64,000 nucleotides of DNA from Lentzea alba. Lineage in GTDB: Bacteria > Actinomycetota > Actinomycetes > Mycobacteriales > Pseudonocardiaceae. Shown in pieces: positions 221-9,435 of the stretch. How positions within the stretch are numbered: position 1 is the first letter of the stretch; each line of letters opens with the position of its first letter. Made by a program: the position numbers and the translations under genes. The DNA is taken from positions 1,412,829-1,476,828 of the forward strand of contig NZ_JAAMPJ010000001.1 of assembly GCF_011067745.1 (NCBI RefSeq), given 5' to 3'. Under the pieces are notes generated by a model, which did not search any database, was not told the DNA's origin, and saw only the letters and a list, made by a program, of their open reading frames with translations.

Positions 221-2869
221 CTACTCGGTCATCCAGCTGATGACCTCGTCGGCTCGTGCGTCGTCCAGCTCACGCCAAAGACGCACACTGCGTTCCCACG
301 CGACGGCGGCCTCTTCTCGCCGATTCAGACGCTTCAGAGCAATGCCCAGTTGACCAAGCACAAAGGCTTCGGTGGGGGTGTCGCCGAACTGTCTCCACAC
401 GCCGGCCAACGTCTCGAGTTCGGGCAGCGCCTCGGCGTGCTGCCCGAGGCTGATCAGCACGGCGGCTCGGTTGCTGCGCACGCGGAGCTTGAGGTACTCG
501 TCGCCGTGCTGCGGCGCCAGTGCCTCAGAGCGAGCCACGTGCGGAAGCGCCTCGGCAGCGCGACCGGTTGCGTGGAGTACCGAAACCAGGTTGGTCTGGG
601 CGGCGCACTCCAGATACACGGATTCGATCTCGGCCGCGATGGTGAGGCCTCGCTGAAGGCAGGCGATCGCCTCGTCCACCCGGTCGAGCTTCCGGTAGAG
701 GCTGGACATGTTGATCAGGCCGGCCGCCTCGGTGTACCGCTCACCTGCCTCGCGCACAAGCGGCATCGCTTCTTCGAAAGCGCGCAGCGCGTCGTCATGG
801 CGGCGGACGTCCTCGTACACCGACGCCAACTTGAGCTTCAGGATCCCCTGCTCGCGGGGTGAGCCGAACGTCGCCACGGCTTCGAACATCTCGACAGCCT
901 CCGCTCGGCGCGCAGGTCCCATGACGATGTACTTGAACAGGTGCAGTGGGAACAACTGAGCGTGTCGGTGCCAGCCTCTGGCGAGCGCCGCGAACATGAC
1001 CGCCTTCAGGTTGGCCCACTCCTGACGACGCCACACGAGGGTGTCGAACCATGAGGAAAACTCCTGCGGCACCACACCGGAAGTCACCTCACCGGCTTGT
1101 ATCAGCACCATGGTGGTCTGAAAGTTCGTGGCGTTTTCCAGAGTGTGGACGTACCACTCGGTCAAACGGAACGCCGCAGCCTCGTCGTCTCCGCACAGCT
1201 CGGCCGCATAGGCGCGCAACAGGTCGTGCAGGTCGTAGCGGCCCGGTGTCCGCGACTGCACGAGATGATCGGCGACCAGCCGCTCCACCAGCCGGCGGGC
1301 TTGGGCGACCGACACACTCGCAAGCGCAGCCGCGGCGCTCACATCGAAGTCAGGTCCAGGGTGAATCGACAGCAATCGGAACATGCGGGCCGACTCGGCG
1401 TCCAAGGCCCGGTAGGACCACGAGAACACCGAACGCACGTCGACGTCCTCGAAGTCGCTCAACGCATCGAGCCGGGTGGCCCCGAGCTCGTCGACGAACT
1501 GCCGCAACGACGTGTCCGGGAATCGCAACACCCGTTCGGCGAAAACCCGCAACGCCAACGGTAGCCCGGCACACCTCTCGGCGATCTCGCGCGCGGACTC
1601 CGGTTCGGTGTCGATTCGCGATTCGCCCAGCACCGCGACTAGCAACGACCGCGCGGCCCCGAAGTCCAGCTGCCGCAGGCTGATCGCCTTCGCGTCGTGC
1701 TGTGAAACCAGGGCGCGGAGCTGGTTGCGGCTGGTGATCACCACCCGCACCCCGGCCGCACCGGGCAACAGGGGAAGCACCTGGCGCGCCGAGGCGGCGT
1801 TGTCCAGCACCAGCAGCAACCGCCGGTCGACCAGCGTCGTGCGCAGCAACGCGAACCGCGCCTCGGCACCGGGCGGGGTCTCCTCGACACCCAGCCCGAT
1901 CAGCAGCATCTCTGCCACCGCCGCCGGATCGACCGGTTGCGCCTCGGGATCGAACCCGCGCAGGTTCACGTAGAGATCACCATCGGGGAATTCGTCGCGC
2001 ACCTCGCGGGCCCACCGCAGCACCAGCGCTGTCTTGCCGACGCCACCGACACCGTGCACGACCGTGACCCCGGTCGTCTTGGCCAGCAACCGGAGTTCCT
2101 CGTCGCGGCCGACGAAGTTCAGCACCGCGGACGGCAGCTGACGCGGGACCTGCCGTCCGCCGGCGGGCACGTCCGCGCGCAGAATCCGTTCGTGCAGCTC
2201 CTGCAGCGGCAGGCCGGGATCGACGCCGAGCTCGTCGGCGAGCTTCGCCCGCACCTGCCGGTAGGCGGCGAGTGCCTCGGCCTGCTGCCCCGCGCGGTAC
2301 AGGGCGAGCATCAAGTGCCGCCAGAACGACTCGCGCAACGGGTGGTCGGCGACCAGCGACCGCAGCTCGACGACGATCTCGCGACCGAGGCCGCGGTCGA
2401 GGTCGGCCTCGATGCGGAGCTCCAACGCGTTGAGACGTTCTTCGGCGAGCCTCGGCACGTCGTCGCAGTGCAGTGCGTCCGACGTGACGTTGGCGAGCAC
2501 CGGCCCGCGCCACAACGCCGACGCCGCACCGAAGTCACCCGAGCCGACCAGGGCCCGGAACCGCAGCAGATCCAGCTGGTCCGGGTCGACGACGGCCAGG
2601 TAGCCGCCGGGCCGCGTCCGCACGCAGTCCGCCGTCCCCAGCGCGGATCTCAGCCGTGCCACCACCATCTGCAACGTCTTGCGGGCGCGATCGGCTTTTG
2701 ACGGCGCTCCGGCCCAGATGCGCTCGATCAGCTCGTCGGCAGACACGAACTGGTTGGGGCGCAACAGCAACGTCGCCAGCAGCACGTGGCATCGGCCGGC
2801 CGGGACAGCCACCGGCTCGCCGTCGAGAAGCACCTCCAACGGCCCCAGCACGCGGAACTCGGCTCGCAC
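221..2869 (-). CDS. SARP/AfsR-type regulator: BTAD + NB-ARC + TPR
   Basis: This 882-residue protein has the AfsR architecture. Residues 1-100 are an OmpR-like winged-helix DNA-binding domain and about 100-232 a bacterial transcriptional activation domain. An NB-ARC (STAND) ATPase follows with Walker A GVGGVGKT at 273-280, a Walker-B-like LLLVLDN near 351-357 and GLPLAL at 435-440. TPR-like helices fill roughly residues 690-870. Such regulators are known to bind direct heptamer repeats next to the -10 box. Exactly such repeats occur four times in the adjoining 2900-3530 region, the first only 34 bp from this start codon. Start is GTG at 2869 after GGAGGG. The divergent site suggests autoregulation and control of the small-RNA array (inference). 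In Streptomyces, afsR likewise neighbours its small target afsS. Confidence 0.9.
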   Translation of the reverse strand: MRAEFRVLGPLEVLLDGEPVAVPAGRCHVLLATLLLRPNQFVSADELIERIWAGAPSKADRARKTLQMVVARLRSALGTADCVRTRPGGYLAVVDPDQLDLLRFRALVGSGDFGAASALWRGPVLANVTSDALHCDDVPRLAEERLNALELRIEADLDRGLGREIVVELRSLVADHPLRESFWRHLMLALYRAGQQAEALAAYRQVRAKLADELGVDPGLPLQELHERILRADVPAGGRQVPRQLPSAVLNFVGRDEELRLLAKTTGVTVVHGVGGVGKTALVLRWAREVRDEFPDGDLYVNLRGFDPEAQPVDPAAVAEMLLIGLGVEETPPGAEARFALLRTTLVDRRLLLVLDNAASARQVLPLLPGAAGVRVVITSRNQLRALVSQHDAKAISLRQLDFGAARSLLVAVLGESRIDTEPESAREIAERCAGLPLALRVFAERVLRFPDTSLRQFVDELGATRLDALSDFEDVDVRSVFSWSYRALDAESARMFRLLSIHPGPDFDVSAAAALASVSVAQARRLVERLVADHLVQSRTPGRYDLHDLLRAYAAELCGDDEAAAFRLTEWYVHTLENATNFQTTMVLIQAGEVTSGVVPQEFSSWFDTLVWRRQEWANLKAVMFAALARGWHRHAQLFPLHLFKYIVMGPARRAEAVEMFEAVATFGSPREQGILKLKLASVYEDVRRHDDALRAFEEAMPLVREAGERYTEAAGLINMSSLYRKLDRVDEAIACLQRGLTIAAEIESVYLECAAQTNLVSVLHATGRAAEALPHVARSEALAPQHGDEYLKLRVRSNRAAVLISLGQHAEALPELETLAGVWRQFGDTPTEAFVLGQLGIALKRLNRREEAAVAWERSVRLWRELDDARADEVISWMTE

Positions 2870-2902
2870 ACGTCCCTCCAGGTCACGGGCAGCTTAGACG
2901 GT

Positions 2903-2947
2903 GTGTGATCGCGGTGTGAGCAAGGTGTGAGCGGGACAGGGCAGAGT
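2903..2947 (+). promoter_or_regulatory. SARP-type promoter P1 of the RNA array
   Basis: Three direct heptamers (GTGTGAT 2903-2909, GTGTGAG 2914-2920, GTGTGAG 2925-2931) repeat with an 11-bp period. Ten bases later comes CAGAGT (2942-2947), a weak -10-like hexamer. This is the geometry known for SARP-activated promoters. It sits in the divergent gap 34 bp from the regulator start. Confidence 0.7.
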
Positions 2948-2953
2948 TCTCCT

Positions 2954-3030
2954 CAGCGGTGCTGGTGGCAAAGATTCCTGGGGGGCCACCAGCACCGCTC
3001 GCCAGTTCCCGGGCACTTTCACCAGCCGCT
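2954..3030 (+). ncRNA. Array RNA 1 (partial or read-through copy)
   Basis: Downstream of P1 is a perfect 15-bp hairpin. Its arms are 2955-2969 and 2985-2999, and its 15-nt loop contains GATTCCTGGGGG. The loop resembles the 15-nt loop of the first hairpin in RNA 2. No terminator precedes P2 at 3037, so the transcript may be a truncated copy or read through to the terminator at 3217-3248. The 3' end is unknown. Confidence 0.45.
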
Positions 3031-3036
3031 CGGCCT

Positions 3037-3070
3037 GTGTGACCGAAGTGTGAGTGCCGCCGGGCAGAGT
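3037..3070 (+). promoter_or_regulatory. SARP-type promoter P2 of the RNA array
   Basis: Two heptamers, GTGTGAC (3037-3043) and GTGTGAG (3048-3054), are spaced 11 bp start to start. Exactly 10 bp separate the second from CAGAGT (3065-3070). Spacing and -10 sequence are the same as in P1, P3 and P4. Confidence 0.7.
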
Positions 3071-3076
3071 GGTGTT

Positions 3077-3248
3077 CAGCCGGACGACGAGAGTGACAAC
3101 GAGATTTGGGGGGTGTCACGATCGTCGACCTCCAGCCGGGCCGCCCCTCCCCAGTGGGTCGGCCCGGAGGGAATCCGGTGATGGGGGGACCGGACAATCC
3201 CCTGTTGTCCGGTGCAGGGCCCGCGGCTTCGGCCGCGGGCCCATTTTT
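3077..3248 (+). ncRNA. Structured small RNA 2 of tandem array
   Basis: Predicted transcript of about 170 nt from P2 to its own terminator. First hairpin: CGACGA (3085-3090) pairs with 3122-3127 and GTGACA (3093-3098) with 3114-3119. A GA/GA internal loop lies between them and the 15-nt loop ends in GGGGGG. Second hairpin: an 8-bp stem 3136-3143/3160-3167 with a 16-nt loop ending CCCCAGTGGGT. Third hairpin: a 9-bp stem 3189-3197/3205-3213 with loop TCCCCTG, directly preceded by GGGGGG (3183-3188) that could pair with the loop as a pseudoknot. No start codon with a ribosome site is seen. Function unknown. Confidence 0.65.
3217..3248 (+). terminator. Intrinsic terminator of RNA 2
   Basis: An 11-bp GC stem (3217-3227/3232-3242) is capped by a TTCG tetraloop closed by C-G and followed by ATTTTT. 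The U-tract lies on the plus side only, which fixes the direction of transcription. Confidence 0.9.
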
Positions 3249-3263
3249 CGTTGCCGACAGCGC

Positions 3264-3308
3264 GCGTCATCGATGCGTGAGCGGCGCGTGAGCGGCGTCC
3301 GGCAGAGT
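3264..3308 (+). promoter_or_regulatory. SARP-type promoter P3 of the RNA array
   Basis: Heptamers GCGTCAT (3264-3270, degenerate), GCGTGAG (3275-3281) and GCGTGAG (3286-3292) repeat every 11 bp. CAGAGT at 3303-3308 again follows after 10 bp. The block is nearly identical to P4, which points to recent duplication of these two units. Confidence 0.7.
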
Positions 3309-3314
3309 CTGCAC

Positions 3315-3445
3315 CGCTGGGTTTCACCAGGCCGGCTCCCCCCAGTGGGTCGGCCGGCGGAATCCGGTCTGGGGGAAATCGGAACCGGGCAGTCCCCTGC
3401 TGTTCGGTTCCCGGGGTCCGCGGCTTCGGCCGCGGGCCCTTTTTT
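3315..3445 (+). ncRNA. Structured small RNA 3 of tandem array
   Basis: Predicted transcript of about 130 nt. It shares a block with RNA 2 (CAGTGGGTCGGCC, then GAATCCGGT). The C-rich 16-nt loop (3335-3350, ending CCCCAGTGGGT) is closed by 3330-3334/3351-3355. A GGGGG run (3371-3375) precedes a 12-bp stem, 3381-3392/3400-3411, which includes two G-U pairs and has loop TCCCCTG, the same loop as in RNA 2. The stem sequence is unrelated to that of RNA 2 but fully paired, which is good evidence for selection on structure. The 5' G-loop hairpin is reduced to a small CTGG/CCAG hairpin. Confidence 0.65.
3414..3445 (+). terminator. Intrinsic terminator of RNA 3
   Basis: An 11-bp stem (3414-3424/3429-3439, one T-G wobble) with TTCG loop is followed by six T residues. 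It is almost identical to the terminator of RNA 2. Confidence 0.9.
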
Positions 3446-3484
3446 CTTCGTTCGGCAACCCGTTCTGTCGTCCTGCGGCAGCGA

Positions 3485-3529
3485 GTGTCATCGATACGTG
3501 AGCGGCGCGTGAGGGGCGTGCGGCAGAGT
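3485..3529 (+). promoter_or_regulatory. SARP-type promoter P4 of the RNA array
   Basis: Heptamers GTGTCAT (3485-3491), ACGTGAG (3496-3502) and GCGTGAG (3507-3513) lie on an 11-bp period. They are followed after 10 bp by CAGAGT (3524-3529), the same geometry as the other three promoters. Confidence 0.7.
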
Positions 3530-3535
3530 CTTGCT

Positions 3536-3702
3536 CAGCCGGTTCGACGGAGGCAGGCAACACCTGGGGGAACCTCCGAAGAACACCCGGCCGGTGCGGT
3601 CGCCTCCCTCTTGGCCACACCGGACCGGGACCGGCGAATGGGGGGAAGCAGGTAGAACCCCTGCTACCTGAATGGGCCCGCGGCTTCGGCTGCGGGCCTT
3701 TT
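3536..3702 (+). ncRNA. Structured small RNA 4 of tandem array
   Basis: Predicted transcript of about 165 nt. First hairpin: CGGAGG (3548-3553) pairs with 3573-3578; its loop contains CACCTGGGGG. Second hairpin: CCGGTG (3591-3596) pairs with 3618-3623 around a pyrimidine-rich loop (CCTCCCTC). Then comes GGGGGG (3640-3645) and the hairpin 3649-3655/3664-3670 with loop AACCCCTG. The order of elements matches RNA 2, although primary sequence outside loops and terminator is largely diverged. Confidence 0.6.
3674..3702 (+). terminator. Intrinsic terminator of RNA 4
   Basis: An 11-bp stem with TTCG loop (3674-3684/3689-3699, two G-U closures) is followed by TTTT. It belongs to the same family as the other two array terminators. 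Confidence 0.85.
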
Positions 3703-3720
3703 CAATTTGCGCCGAAACGA

Positions 3721-3767
3721 ACGCGGGGAGCTTTCGTGCACCAGAAGTGCACGAAAGCTCCCCGCGT
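3721..3767. repeat. 21-bp perfect inverted repeat after the RNA array
   Basis: Arms 3721-3741 and 3747-3767 are perfectly complementary over 21 bp with loop CAGAA. The element lies between the last array terminator and the eccC stop codon at 3786. It may be a strong terminator for eccC, although there is no T-tract, or a dispersed palindromic element. Which of these applies cannot be told from one copy. Confidence 0.85.
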
Positions 3768-3785
3768 GGGCAGAGATACCGGTTG

Positions 3786-6700
3786 TTATTCCGGCGGAAT
3801 CCAGGCGAACTGCATGCGCTGCTGACCGAACTTGCGGGTCACCAGCGTGCCCCGGCCGGGAGGCTGCGGCGACGGCTTCAGGTTGCCGACGATGTTGCCC
3901 TCCTCCTTCGAACCGGAACCGACGAAGATCGGCGCCGCGATCTCCTTCAGCTTGCCGATGATCGGGTCGTACATCGCGCGGGACGCGCCACCCATGCGGC
4001 GGACGACGACCACGTGCAGACCGACGTCCTTCGCCTGCGGGATGAACTCGGCCAGCGGCTGCATCGGGTTCGCGCCACCCTGTGGAGCGACCAGGTCGTA
4101 GTCGTCGACGACGACGAACACCTCGGGACCCGTCCACCAGGAGCGGTTCTTGAGCTGTTCCTGCGTGACGTCCGGGCCGGGCATGCGCTTGGCGAGCGAG
4201 GCGCGCACCTCCTGGACGTTCTGCGTGAACTGGGTGCCCGACACCGCGTAGGTGAGCAGGTGGTCGGTGTCGATGAAACCGAGCATCGTGCGGCGGTAGT
4301 CCGCGAGCAGGATCAACGCCTCGGACGAGGTGTAGCTCTGCATGATGCCGCGGACGATCGTGCGCAGGATGTTCGTCTTGCCCGACTCGCCGTCGGCCAG
4401 CGCGACGAAGTGCGGGTCCGCGTCGAAGTCCAGGTAGACCGGCGCGAGCTCGTCCTCGTTGACACCGACCGGGACCAGGTGGCCGCGGTTGGGGTTGATC
4501 TGCTGGACGTGCGCCATGAACTGCGCGTGGTCGAGCAGGTCGGGCAGCATCCGGACCTGCGGGGCCCGCGGGCCCTGCCACGCCTGGGTGAGCTTGGCGC
4601 TGAGGTCCTGGACACCCGCCGAGATCGTGGTCGGGTCCTGCGAGGTGTCGATGCGCGGCAGGCCGGTGAGGAAGTGCAGCTTGTCACCGGTCAGACCGCG
4701 GCCGGGACGACCGGGCGGCACGTTGATCGCGACCTTGCGGTCGATCTCGGACTCGCTCGGGTCACCGAGGCGCAGCTCGAAGCGGGTGCCGAGGAGGTCC
4801 TTCATGGCGGGCCGGATCTCCGCCCACCGGTTGGCGGCGACGATCACGTGCACGCCGTAGGACAGACCCTGCGCCGCCAGCGCCTGGACCTGCGGCTCGA
4901 CCATCTCGAACTCCTGGCGGAAGTTCATCCAGCCGTCCACGATCAGGAACGCGTCGCCGAAGGCGTCGTCGTTGATCTCACCGCGGCGCTTGCGGTTGCG
5001 GAACTCGACCATCGAGTCGATCCGCTGGTCGCGCCAGCGGAGCTCGCGTTCGGTGATCAGGGTCTGCAACTCGGCCACCATGCGGCGGACCTTGTCGACG
5101 TCGAGACGACCGGCGAACCCACCGACGTGCGGCATGTCCTCCATCGACGCGAGCGTGCCACCACCGAGGTCGATGCAGTAGAACTGCGCCTCCTGCGGCG
5201 TGTGCGTCAGCGACATCGACGCGATGATCGTCCTGAGCAGGGTCGACTTGCCCGACTGCGGACCACCGACGACCGCGCCGTGGCCGGCGGCACCGGAGAA
5301 GTCCGCCCACAGCAGGTCGCGGCGCTGCTCGAACGGCTTGTCGACCACACCGACCGGGATCTGCAGCACGCCGTTCGCCCCGTAACCGGGCGAGGTGAGT
5401 CCGCGGTCCGGCGTCACGTCGAGCGGCGGCAGGATCGTGTCCATCGTCGGCGGCTCGTTCAGCGGCGGCAGCCACACCTCGTGCGCGGGCGGGCCCTGGC
5501 CGACGAGGCGGTCGACGATCAGCTCGAGCTGGGTCGGCTCGTTGCCCTCTTCCTTCTTCGGCTCCGCGGCCTTGACCGGCTCGACGGGCCGTTCCGGCTC
5601 CTTCGGGATCTCGATGAAGTCCGGCACGAAGAACCGCGGGCGCTTGTCGCTGCGGACCGCCACCGACTCACCGGCGGACTGCATGCCCGACGGCCGGTAG
5701 GTGCCAGAGACGTAGAGCGCCTTGAACCTGGTCAGCGGCATGCCCTGCACGCTCAGGTAACCCGAGCCGGGGATCGGCGGCAGCTCGTAGGCGTCCGGCA
5801 CACCGATCGCCGCGCGCGACTCGGCCGCGTTGAACGTCTTCAGGCCGATCCGGTACGAGAGGAACGTGTCCAGACCGCGCAGCTTGCCCTCCTCGAGTCG
5901 CTGCGACGCGAGGAGCATGTGCATCTGCAGCGACCGGCCGACACGACCGATCTGGAGGAAGATGTCGATGAAGTCCGGCTTCGCCGTCAGCATCTCGGAG
6001 AACTCGTCGATGCAGATGAACAGCGCGGGCAGCGGGTCGAGCTGGGCGCCGTTCTCGCGGGCCTTCTCGTAGTCCCAGACGTTCTTGTAGTTGCCCTTCG
6101 CCAGGACCTCCTGGCGACGCGACACCTCACCGGCGATGGCGTCCTTCATGCGGTCGACCAGGGTGAGGTCGCCGGCCAGGTTGGTGATCGTCGCGGCGAC
6201 GTGCGGTGCCTTGTCCAGACCGAGGAACGTCGCACCACCCTTGAAGTCGACGAGGATCATGTTGAGCGCCGTCGACGAGTGCGAGGCCAGCAGGCCCAGC
6301 ACCAGGGTCCGGAGGAACTCCGACTTACCGGAACCGGTCGCGCCGATGCACAGGCCGTGCGGGCCCATGCCGTCCTCGGCCGCTTCCTTGATGTCGAGCT
6401 CGACCTGCTGGCCGTGCTCACCGATGCCGAACGGGATCCGGTAGCGGTCGCGCTTGGGCCGCGGGCGCCAGGCCTGCTGCACGTCGAACGTGATCGGGTC
6501 GCCGGGAATGCCCATGAACTCGAGGATCGGCGGGTTGTTGCTCATCGCCAACGGGTCCTCGCCGCTGTCGCCACCGGCTTCACCGGCCGCGCCCATGCGG
6601 TACGGCGAGAGCCTGCGGGCGAGCGCCTCGGCCTCCACGATGGACAGCCGGTCCGGCGCGCCGAACCACTCGACACCGCTCGCGGAACGGGCACCGAGCT

Positions 6701-7799: not shown

Positions 7800-8031
7800 C
7801 TGACAGGCACCTCTTCGACTCTCGTTACGCCACCAGTAGCAACCGACACTATTGCGCATCTGCGCGCGCCACGAAGGTGGGTCTGGAAAAAACCCAGTCG
7901 AACGTGTTCTGCGAACCACACGTGCAAAGACGGTCGGTGCGGCCATACTAGGGCCGCCCGGCGAGCGTCCGAGTGGACCAATAGGGTCGGGCCGTTGATT
8001 TGTAAGTGCTGATCTGACTTAGGGGGCCCTG
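7800..8031. promoter_or_regulatory. Divergent eccC/eccD intergenic region
   Basis: This 232-bp gap separates the oppositely oriented eccC and eccD and must carry both promoters. It is locally less GC-rich than the genes. No convincing -35/-10 pair or GTGTGAG-type SARP heptamer array was found here by eye, so a direct link to the neighbouring regulator is not supported. Confidence 0.4.
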
Positions 8032-9435
8032 GTGGCGACCGGTACGACGGTGTTCAGCCGTGTCACGGTGGTGGCACCTCGAACGCGTATCGACGTCGCG
8101 CTGCCTGCCGACGTGGCGGTGGCCGATCTCCTGCCGATGCTGCTGGACATGGCCAGAGAGGCCACTCCGGACGGTGGTGTCCGGCACGGCGGCTGGTGCC
8201 TCGCGAAGCTCGGCGACAGCCCGCTCGACCCCGCGCGCACGCTGGCATCACTCGGCGTCGTCGACGGCGAGCTGCTGCAGTTGCGGCGCCGCAACGAGAA
8301 TCCGCCGCCGCCGTTGTACGACGACGTCGTCGACGCGATCGCCGAGTCCGACCCCGACTCGTTCCGGCCGTGGACCAAGGAGACCGCGCAGCGGTTCGGT
8401 CACCTCGCCGGCGCGCTCGCGCTGATCGCCGCCGCGGTGGCGCTGTTCCTGTCCGGCCCGGTGACGCAGGACGGTTCCGGCAGCGGACTCGCCGCCGCCA
8501 TCGCCGGTGGTGTCGCCGCGATCGCCGCACTGGCCGCGGGCGCGACCATCTCGCGGGCGTACGAAGCGGCGTCGACCGGTGTGCTGATCGCCGCGTGCGG
8601 TTCGCTGCCGATGGCGTTCGTCGCGGGCTTCCACGCGGTGCCCGGTGTCGGGTTCAACCCGAAGATGCTGCTGGCCTCGGCCCTGCTGATGATCTTCGCG
8701 TGGGGCGGCATCCTGCTGATCGGGCAGGGCATCACGGTGTTCATCGCCGCGGCGACCGGCGGCACCCTGGTGGCGCTCGCGTTCCTCGTCGCGACGTTCG
8801 TCGACCACCCGCTGGCCGGCGTGGCAGCCGCGACCGGCGCGGTCGCGCTCGCCGCGCTGTCCATGCTGCCCCGGCTCACGCTGCAGCTGGCCAAGATCCC
8901 GCCGCCCGTCGTGCCGACGAACGCCGAGGACCTCAAGGAGGACAGCGGCTTCCCGGAGTACGCGGTGATCGAGCGCCGCACCGCCGTGGCGCACCAGTAC
9001 CTCACCGGCATGATCATCGGCACCGGCGCCATCGCGGCGCTGGCGGCCATCGTCGCCGCGGGCTCCGGCACGGTCTGGGGCCCGATCTACGGCGTCGTCG
9101 TCGCGATCGTGCTGATGATGCGCGGTCGTGCGTACGCGAACGGCGCGCAGGCCGTGGCGTTGCTGTCGACCGGCATGTTCGCCAGCGCGGGCATCCTGCT
9201 GGGCTGGCTGATCTCGGCGTCGTCGTTCAGCCGCATCGCGTTCGTGTTCGGCACGCTGCTGATCCTCGGAGCCGCGGCACTCGTGCTCGGGGTGATCTTC
9301 CCCGGCCAGAAGTTCTCGCCGCCGCTGCGCCGCACCGTCGACATCATCGAGGCGATCCTCATCGCGTCGGTGGTGCCGCTGGCGCTCGCCGTGATGGAGA
9401 TGTACTCGGTGTTCCGGGGCCTGATCTCGCTATGA
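8032..9435 (+). CDS. eccD: T7SS integral membrane protein EccD
   Basis: EccD forms the multi-spanning membrane vestibule of the ESX core complex. The first ~85 residues are a YukD/ubiquitin-like cytosolic domain. A linker follows and then about eleven hydrophobic segments from residue ~125 to the end. Length (467) fits the family. The start is GTG at 8032 behind a G-rich stretch (AGGGGG). The stop codon overlaps the mycP start (ATGA at 9432-9435), so the two are translationally coupled. Confidence 0.92.
   Translation: MATGTTVFSRVTVVAPRTRIDVALPADVAVADLLPMLLDMAREATPDGGVRHGGWCLAKLGDSPLDPARTLASLGVVDGELLQLRRRNENPPPPLYDDVVDAIAESDPDSFRPWTKETAQRFGHLAGALALIAAAVALFLSGPVTQDGSGSGLAAAIAGGVAAIAALAAGATISRAYEAASTGVLIAACGSLPMAFVAGFHAVPGVGFNPKMLLASALLMIFAWGGILLIGQGITVFIAAATGGTLVALAFLVATFVDHPLAGVAAATGAVALAALSMLPRLTLQLAKIPPPVVPTNAEDLKEDSGFPEYAVIERRTAVAHQYLTGMIIGTGAIAALAAIVAAGSGTVWGPIYGVVVAIVLMMRGRAYANGAQAVALLSTGMFASAGILLGWLISASSFSRIAFVFGTLLILGAAALVLGVIFPGQKFSPPLRRTVDIIEAILIASVVPLALAVMEMYSVFRGLISL

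Follow-up and report, generated by a model that had tools for sequence, protein, structure and literature searches.

The window, by which we mean the whole 64 kb stretch of DNA analysed here, belongs to a Lentzea genome of 10.2 Mb. Between a SARP gene and eccC it contains a gap (2870-3785) that had been described from the sequence alone as lacking protein genes, and Pfam gave no match in the four ORFs scanned, which lie in or overlap the gap (the remaining listed gap ORFs were left out). The regulator had been assigned to the SARP/STAND type, and this assignment was confirmed by its Trans_reg_C, BTAD, NB-ARC and TPR domains in Pfam, by which it meets the criteria for a large SARP of the AfsR type (ODB/BTAD, NOD (NB-ARC) and TPR). 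A sequence match against PDB identified AfsR of Streptomyces (8k60, E 1.8e-82). SARPs have been studied as activators of antibiotic genes. Relatives of the window SARP were found at 14 loci, 11 of them close (63-70% identity, all in Lentzea) and three distant. Beyond the gap lie eccC, which is 89-97% identical across 23 Lentzea, and then eccD, a subtilase gene and a WXG100-like gene (the last below the Pfam cut-off); this run of genes is an ESX cluster. The features of the locus are as follows.

221..2869, minus strand: gene for an AfsR-like large SARP with Trans_reg_C/BTAD, NB-ARC (STAND) and TPR domains (Pfam; PDB match)
2903..2933, plus strand: operator A, three 9-mers (2903, 2914, 2925) with an 11-bp period
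2942..2947, plus strand: -10 box of unit A (CAGAGT), 8 bp past the operator
2955..2999, plus strand: unit A hairpin, a 15-bp perfect stem with CCTGGGGGG in its loop and no terminator
2999..3015, plus strand: perhaps the residue of a deleted SARP gene's 3' end, 14/17 identical to the SARP 3' end of locus L065
3037..3056, plus strand: operator B, two clear 9-mers
3065..3070, plus strand: -10 box of unit B
3077..3248, plus strand: unit B RNA, predicted ends, matched by the R1 covariance model
3217..3242, plus strand: terminator of unit B, TTCG loop
3264..3294, plus strand: operator C, three 9-mers, the first weaker
3303..3308, plus strand: -10 box of unit C
3315..3446, plus strand: unit C RNA, predicted ends, R1 match with E 4.5e-10
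3413..3440, plus strand: terminator of unit C, TTCG loop
3485..3515, plus strand: operator D, three 9-mers
3524..3529, plus strand: -10 box of unit D
3536..3706, plus strand: unit D RNA, predicted ends, R2 match with E 5.9e-20
3674..3699, plus strand: terminator of unit D, TTCG loop
3786..7946, minus strand: eccC of the ESX (type VII secretion) system, convergent with the array (FtsK_SpoIIIE, E 5.6e-75)

Four promoter units had been proposed from CAGAGT boxes at 2942, 3065, 3303 and 3524, spaced by 123, 238 and 221 bp, and they held up as one four-copy repeat family, which a general repeat scan recovered as four repeats of 45 nt each. In every promoter, 9-bp direct repeats with an 11-bp period end exactly 8 bp ahead of the box. 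Scans of the window and the oriented loci L052-L075 (24 stretches, 23 Lentzea genomes) returned an operator-to-box distance of 8 bp throughout, for all 50 candidates with an allowed range of 8-19 bp and for all 52 with a range of 0-20 bp; a looser operator/box scan gave 69 candidates, a few of them doubtful. The paper on the AfsR structure describes promoters under SARP control as carrying direct repeats with a period of 11 or 22 bp, of which the 3' one is placed 8 bp from the -10 element (PMC10936776), and the array promoters match this layout of SARP-activated promoters in both the repeat period and the distance to -10. A plain sigma-70 scan detected no promoter in the array, which is expected if the SARP repeats stand in for the -35 element.

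When searched as two repeats plus box with at most 2 mismatches, the operator occurred in 26 of 390 family genomes, namely 23 of the 24 Lentzea genomes, 2 of the 3 from one other genus and one genome with a probable chance match, and the reversed pattern occurred in none of the 390. All matches in the 23 Lentzea genomes fell in the SARP/eccC region (split over two contigs in G008). Across the order, a search allowing no more than 1 mismatch matched 5 out of 397 genomes, all of them Lentzea. The promoter layout and the confinement of the operator to the SARP/eccC locus led us to infer dedicated control by the SARP; that it controls the array promoters is likely, on an inference made without binding or transcript data.

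The units are read away from the SARP, as had been stated, and the three complete units with TTCG-loop terminators of their own were all recovered on the plus strand. A terminator scan of the array found 8 terminator-like sites (6 plus, 2 minus) against a shuffle mean of 1.1, three of the plus-strand sites being nested within the others. Speaking of three complete units implied that the fourth was incomplete, and unit A is indeed a hairpin lacking a terminator. The description of the array as a multicopy non-coding RNA stood only in part: the units are ncRNA-like with covarying stems, but they represent related classes, A, B/C and D, rather than one RNA. Unit B is ordered as P0, P1 (G6 loop), P2 (CCCTCCCCAGTGG loop), ATGGGGGG, P3 (CCCC loop) and terminator, and unit C is B-like without P1, its P2 loop being CTCCCCCCAGTGG, followed by P3 and terminator. 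Unit D consists of P0, P1 (CCTGGGGG loop), P2 (GCCTCCCTCTT loop), ATGGGGGG, P3 (AACCCCTG loop) and terminator. The plan P1, P2, ATGGGGG, P3 and terminator is common to class B (21 copies plus one hybrid) and, with other loops, to class D (17 copies aligned, 19 tested). In class A, the stem is near-invariant across 22 copies and every loop contains CTGGGGGG (22/22).

In the predicted B and D transcripts, stems covary and loops are fixed. In a flank-shuffle test at the 5% level, the P1, P2 and P3 hairpins passed in 19/22, 12/22 and 20/22 cases for class B, and in 11/18, 18/18 and 11/15 cases for class D, where 1, 1 and 4 of the 19 units were omitted since their loop core was not found. Covariation analysis A5, with 22 class B sequences, gave 11 pairs changed on both sides (shuffle mean 4.7), and A6, with 14 of the 19 class D units, gave 6 pairs (shuffle mean 2.4), or 8 with P0 included (shuffle mean 3.8); none of 500 shuffles reached the observed count in any of the three. 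Pairing amounted to 92-94% in the A5 and A6 structures versus 23-47% in slid controls. For further pair types in A6, one covariation measure, 4 of 500 shuffles reached the observed value. P0 of class B lay outside the covariation count, and A6 leaves out L052, L053, L067, L072 and the divergent L075. Relatedness among sequences can by itself lift counts above those of shuffles, and the structure was set by hand. Class A hardly varies and therefore offers no covariation evidence.

Single-sequence folds of B and D contained a P0/P1/P2 junction, with the P1 G runs 0.80-0.84 unpaired. The P2 loop of D was 0.93 unpaired; in the P2 loop of B, the second C run was 0.97 unpaired and the first 0.16. 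RNAalifold paired the P2 loop of class B with a downstream G run; the per-unit folds were preferred for this class, and pairs were counted on the hand-set structure, a choice that biases the count in its favour. Small peptides might be encoded instead, given that one frame runs without a stop over 170 nt in 19 of 21 B units, as frames in GC-rich DNA often do, and that ATGGGGG is common in the units. However, the reading frame is displaced from one species to the next by differences in G-run length and by indels in the stems, for which reason the units were judged non-coding; moreover, ATG is absent from some units, the frame in window unit D stops after five codons, and the four gap ORFs scanned lack any Pfam match. 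Peptide coding is accordingly very unlikely. In the absence of transcript data, we regard the array units as very probably structured RNAs.

No Rfam family reached its gathering score in the 64 kb window. A known Rfam family was rejected, the best sub-threshold score being 27.6 of 50 bits (sX13); the sub-threshold match with the lowest E value was BjrC68 (24.9 of 39 bits, E 4.9e-4). Identity with 6C RNA (RF01066) was also rejected, as it was absent both at gathering score and among the 15 matches with E<=5 at 2870-3790. The array resembles 6C RNA in its C-rich hairpin loops, the P2 loop of unit B (CCCTCCCCAGTGG) being similar to 6C loop 2 (CCCTCCCCCCTGG), but 6C RNA is a separate gene in the same genomes with a different fold, and the array has no Rfam match. 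Going by its title as cited in PMC9569102, the work of Mai et al. (2019) reportedly found that 6C RNA binds mRNAs by its C-rich loops.

The G6 loops of the array (P1 and ATGGGGGG) might serve as a sponge that titrates the C6 loops of 6C RNA, which is conserved in actinobacteria, by which the SARP would relieve 6C repression. Each of the 9 genomes tested has one 6C gene (for example at L143 1501-1575, G000 C12), and the fold of the window genome's copy leaves its C-rich loops 0.95-0.96 unpaired. By eye, GGGGGGA pairs with TCCCCCC of 6C loop 2 over 7 bp. The G loop of unit A is 0.70 unpaired and, in the window, this unit has no C loop of its own; the presence of CTGGGGGG in all class A loops fits a sponge as well. 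Nevertheless, any G6 run has the same complementarity, which is therefore not specific, and the C-rich loops of the other units could take up the G loops internally. We consider a 6C sponge improbable.

Across the genus, DNA matches to the array were found in 23 of 23 Lentzea genus-mates (89% identity at the locus in G022), and units recur beside eccC with varying number and order, which is more than chance would give. The sequence-only reading had asked whether covariance matches would cluster by regulator genes of this type, and had named as a refutation a search that returns this locus alone without conserved pairing. That refutation did not come about: R1 matched 22 and R2 22 of 24 Lentzea genomes, together all 24, with covarying pairs and always in the SARP/eccC region. 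Outside Lentzea, R2 had no match in a search of 99 genomes in all, and R1 had one weak match, in G065 (E 0.005), which was judged chance; these runs used stricter filters, with which weak matches are lost. A DNA search of the window's own genome gave 41 matches, made up of the array itself and 40 with E > 0.1, while outside Lentzea the DNA search gave three weak matches (G033, G044 and G054).

In another genus (g22), a reduced version of the module exists: G044 shows the same gene order, with a SARP gene, one RNA-like unit including its operator, and eccC. G426 of the same genus keeps operator and unit (L137, around 9791), although a search of 19.5 kb at E 1e-5 detected no SARP. Next to eccC, G427 and G054 have an Hsp70-type gene (named by eye), without a SARP between the two. 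From these layouts, the place of the module is between the Hsp70-type gene and eccC, and it seems to be gained and lost repeatedly. A D unit has been retained in G015 (L067, 8381), where a search of the 18-kb stretch at E 1e-10 detected no SARP, so the RNA may outlive its regulator, as the unit of G426 also suggests. Inspection by eye of the region upstream of a distantly related SARP gene in Nonomuraea revealed neither repeats nor a hairpin of this kind.

Many Lentzea loci contain several SARP paralogues in a row. Beside eccC, none to five paralogues or fragments were detected per species at L052-L075. The SARP cluster at this site is a hot spot of duplication and decay. A divergent operator was located within 200 nt of 36 of 51 minus-strand SARP starts with a minimum score of 13 out of 18 (95th percentile of shuffles 9-11, individual shuffles reaching up to 15); the 51 starts include some gene fragments, and two plus-strand starts were left out. 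A hairpin with a G-run loop follows the operator at 30 of these 36 starts, and its stem has at least 13 pairs at 17 of the 36, 15 of the 17 being class A. Among 3000 random segments of the same loci, G-loop hairpins of at least 6 pairs occurred in 281 and of at least 13 pairs in 3. The stems of five units (L052 6681, L053 1906, L056 6337, L058 4032 and L062 5780) are unlike class A and partly alike among themselves, and CCTGGGG is kept in the loops of all five. These operators and G-loop hairpins at neighbouring SARP paralogues indicate that the repeated element probably comprises a SARP gene and an RNA diverging from one operator. Correspondingly, the match to a SARP 3' end directly after unit A led us to read units B-D as leftovers of SARP loss, and they are probably, by inference from sequence, orphans of lost SARP genes.

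The class A hairpin abuts a convergent ORF stop (ORFs of at least 100 codons) in 8 of 22 copies, of which 7 are intact SARP-like ends and one, in L072, was judged spurious. This arrangement, together with the nearly invariant unit A stem, would also fit hairpins that act in cis or as DNA, whether as a boundary, as antisense into the SARP 3' end or as a protein-binding palindrome, without any RNA acting in trans. Such roles do not need the terminators, covarying stems and fixed loops that units B-D possess, and we find this explanation unlikely.

We favour instead the array as the output module of the AfsR-like SARP, with a probability of about 0.55 for the whole chain from regulator through promoters and RNAs to pairing in trans; the anatomy, the conservation, the covariation and the operator layout with its confinement to the locus are shown by the sequences, and transcription, SARP binding, trans base pairing and gene loss are all inferred. 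In the proposed mechanism, the STAND/TPR part would sense a signal and the SARP would bind the 11-bp repeats, upon which RNA polymerase would start at the four -10 boxes and produce short structured RNAs, units A-D, of which B-D would end at their own terminators and A would not. The fixed C-rich loops (P2: CCTCCC..., P3: CCCC) would pair in trans with G-rich ribosome-binding sites, with competition for the C-rich loops, within or between units, from the G-rich loop of P1 and from the ATGGGGG joint. The array may have grown by duplication of a SARP gene and an RNA on a shared operator, the SARP genes of B, C and D having been lost here. Trans action by C-rich loop pairing rests on analogy without target data, and on its own we rate it as possible with the odds somewhat against it. 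The G-rich loops could pair with 6C RNA or with C-rich loops of sister units, or could mimic the SARP leader.

Base-pairing target tests (Shine-Dalgarno, arm complement and D-loop motif) gave no clear winner. Among 52 window gene starts, which were assigned by crude GC-frame calling, the start region of the SARP itself ranked 14, 9 and 11 as a target of the three P2 loops, so that self-targeting by Shine-Dalgarno pairing did not stand out. The exact complement of the D loop occurred 21 times ahead of start codons in four genomes versus 46 times for a reversed control, and this motif was rejected as a genome-wide target. A Shine-Dalgarno match in the WXG100-like gene was rejected because it is not kept in relatives.

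Operator A lies between the SARP start and unit A. In the region of 2870-2902 (minus strand of the window), a short leader with TCTAAACT is common to many SARP genes beside operator A, and a CCTGG(A/G)GG site occurs upstream of the SARP start in 12 of 22 class A copies. The shared leader and this site suggest a divergent promoter on operator A and SARP autoregulation. A feedback on the SARP itself can be envisaged, in which the B/C loops (CCTCCCCAG) cover the SARP ribosome-binding site and the A loops and D P1 loops (CCTGGGGG) act as decoys. The position of CCTGG(A/G)GG just ahead of the SARP start would suit this, and CTGG(A/G)GG is found upstream of 17 of 53 SARP starts, of which 12 adjoin a class A unit. 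However, the longer site is absent from the other 10 class A copies, and the corresponding site of the window SARP (CCTGGAGGG) is not outstanding as a target, so that we hold out little hope for such feedback.

Another specific target would be eccD, and hence type VII secretion, if unit A silenced it through base pairing between the 3' arm of the unit, GCCACCAG, and the start of eccD, CTGGTGGC. The eccD start has the longest exact complement among the 52 window gene starts, 8 nt, a length equalled by 40 of 2000 shuffled arms; by eye, the RNA of the other genus has CGCCACCAG, 9 nt complementary to the eccD start, and such pairing would explain the near-invariant unit A stem. Set against this, eccD came third rather than first as a unit A target by duplex energy, the 3' arm is buried in the 15-bp stem, and many comparisons were possible. 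Moreover, conservation of the eccD leader is just as strong in genomes in which we found no RNA of this kind, and eccD is therefore kept only as a weak and quite improbable rival to the output module with C-rich loops as its pairing parts.

That output module is similar to the AfsR/afsS system of Streptomyces in having a SARP-NOD-TPR regulator and 11-bp repeats 8 bp from -10. afsS encodes a small protein. In contrast, the adjacent targets in Lentzea have the appearance of structured RNAs, as many as four in succession and divergent from the regulator. In the GacA-controlled RsmX/Y/Z system and CsrB-type sponges, an activator has redundant RNA outputs with the repeated loop motif GGA; the array is comparable in that the direct outputs of an activator are redundant RNAs with a repeated loop motif, but its motif is G5-6. 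To our knowledge, actinobacteria have no CsrA. LhrC1-5 of Listeria are related small RNAs, each with its own promoter and activated by LisR, and a CU-rich loop of LhrC4 pairs with an AG-rich Shine-Dalgarno region (PMC5880928). The array likewise has several related putative small RNAs with own promoters, by inference under one activator, and C-rich loops resembling that of LhrC4; it differs in that LhrC belongs to another phylum with a response regulator as activator, and in that the Lentzea RNAs also carry G-rich loops.

Among the literature matches listed, no SARP activating small RNAs was reported (most subscription papers were outside the scope), nor was any such type VII/small-RNA module or sibling or tandem actinobacterial sRNA module. 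The resemblance of the array promoters to known binding sites of the SARP family suggests that the output of the regulator would be RNA, not protein. If true, large SARPs gain an RNA output, the locus provides a natural and compact activator-promoter-RNA module with duplication as a pair, and both the signal and the role of a STAND-type SARP outside biosynthetic clusters become testable at one locus by a type VII secretion cluster. More broadly, AfsR-like STAND regulators may have a structured-RNA family of their own as direct regulon, a self-contained sensor-to-RNA module duplicated as a pair, in which a network of mutually complementary G-rich and C-rich loops (decoy A, silencers B/C/D, possibly with 6C as partner) sets the translation of many genes or type VII secretion; this remains a speculation that we consider doubtful.

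Between the array and the eccC stop, a perfect 21-bp inverted repeat (3721-3767) with a T-rich tail on the minus strand is likely the eccC terminator. The eccD leader at 8006-8040 (TTAGGGGGC.CTGGTGGCG) is near-identical across the 24 listed sequences from Lentzea, and several other genera share it, a conservation that, judged from sequence comparison, may exceed what a plain ribosome-binding site needs and may reflect regulation of its own.
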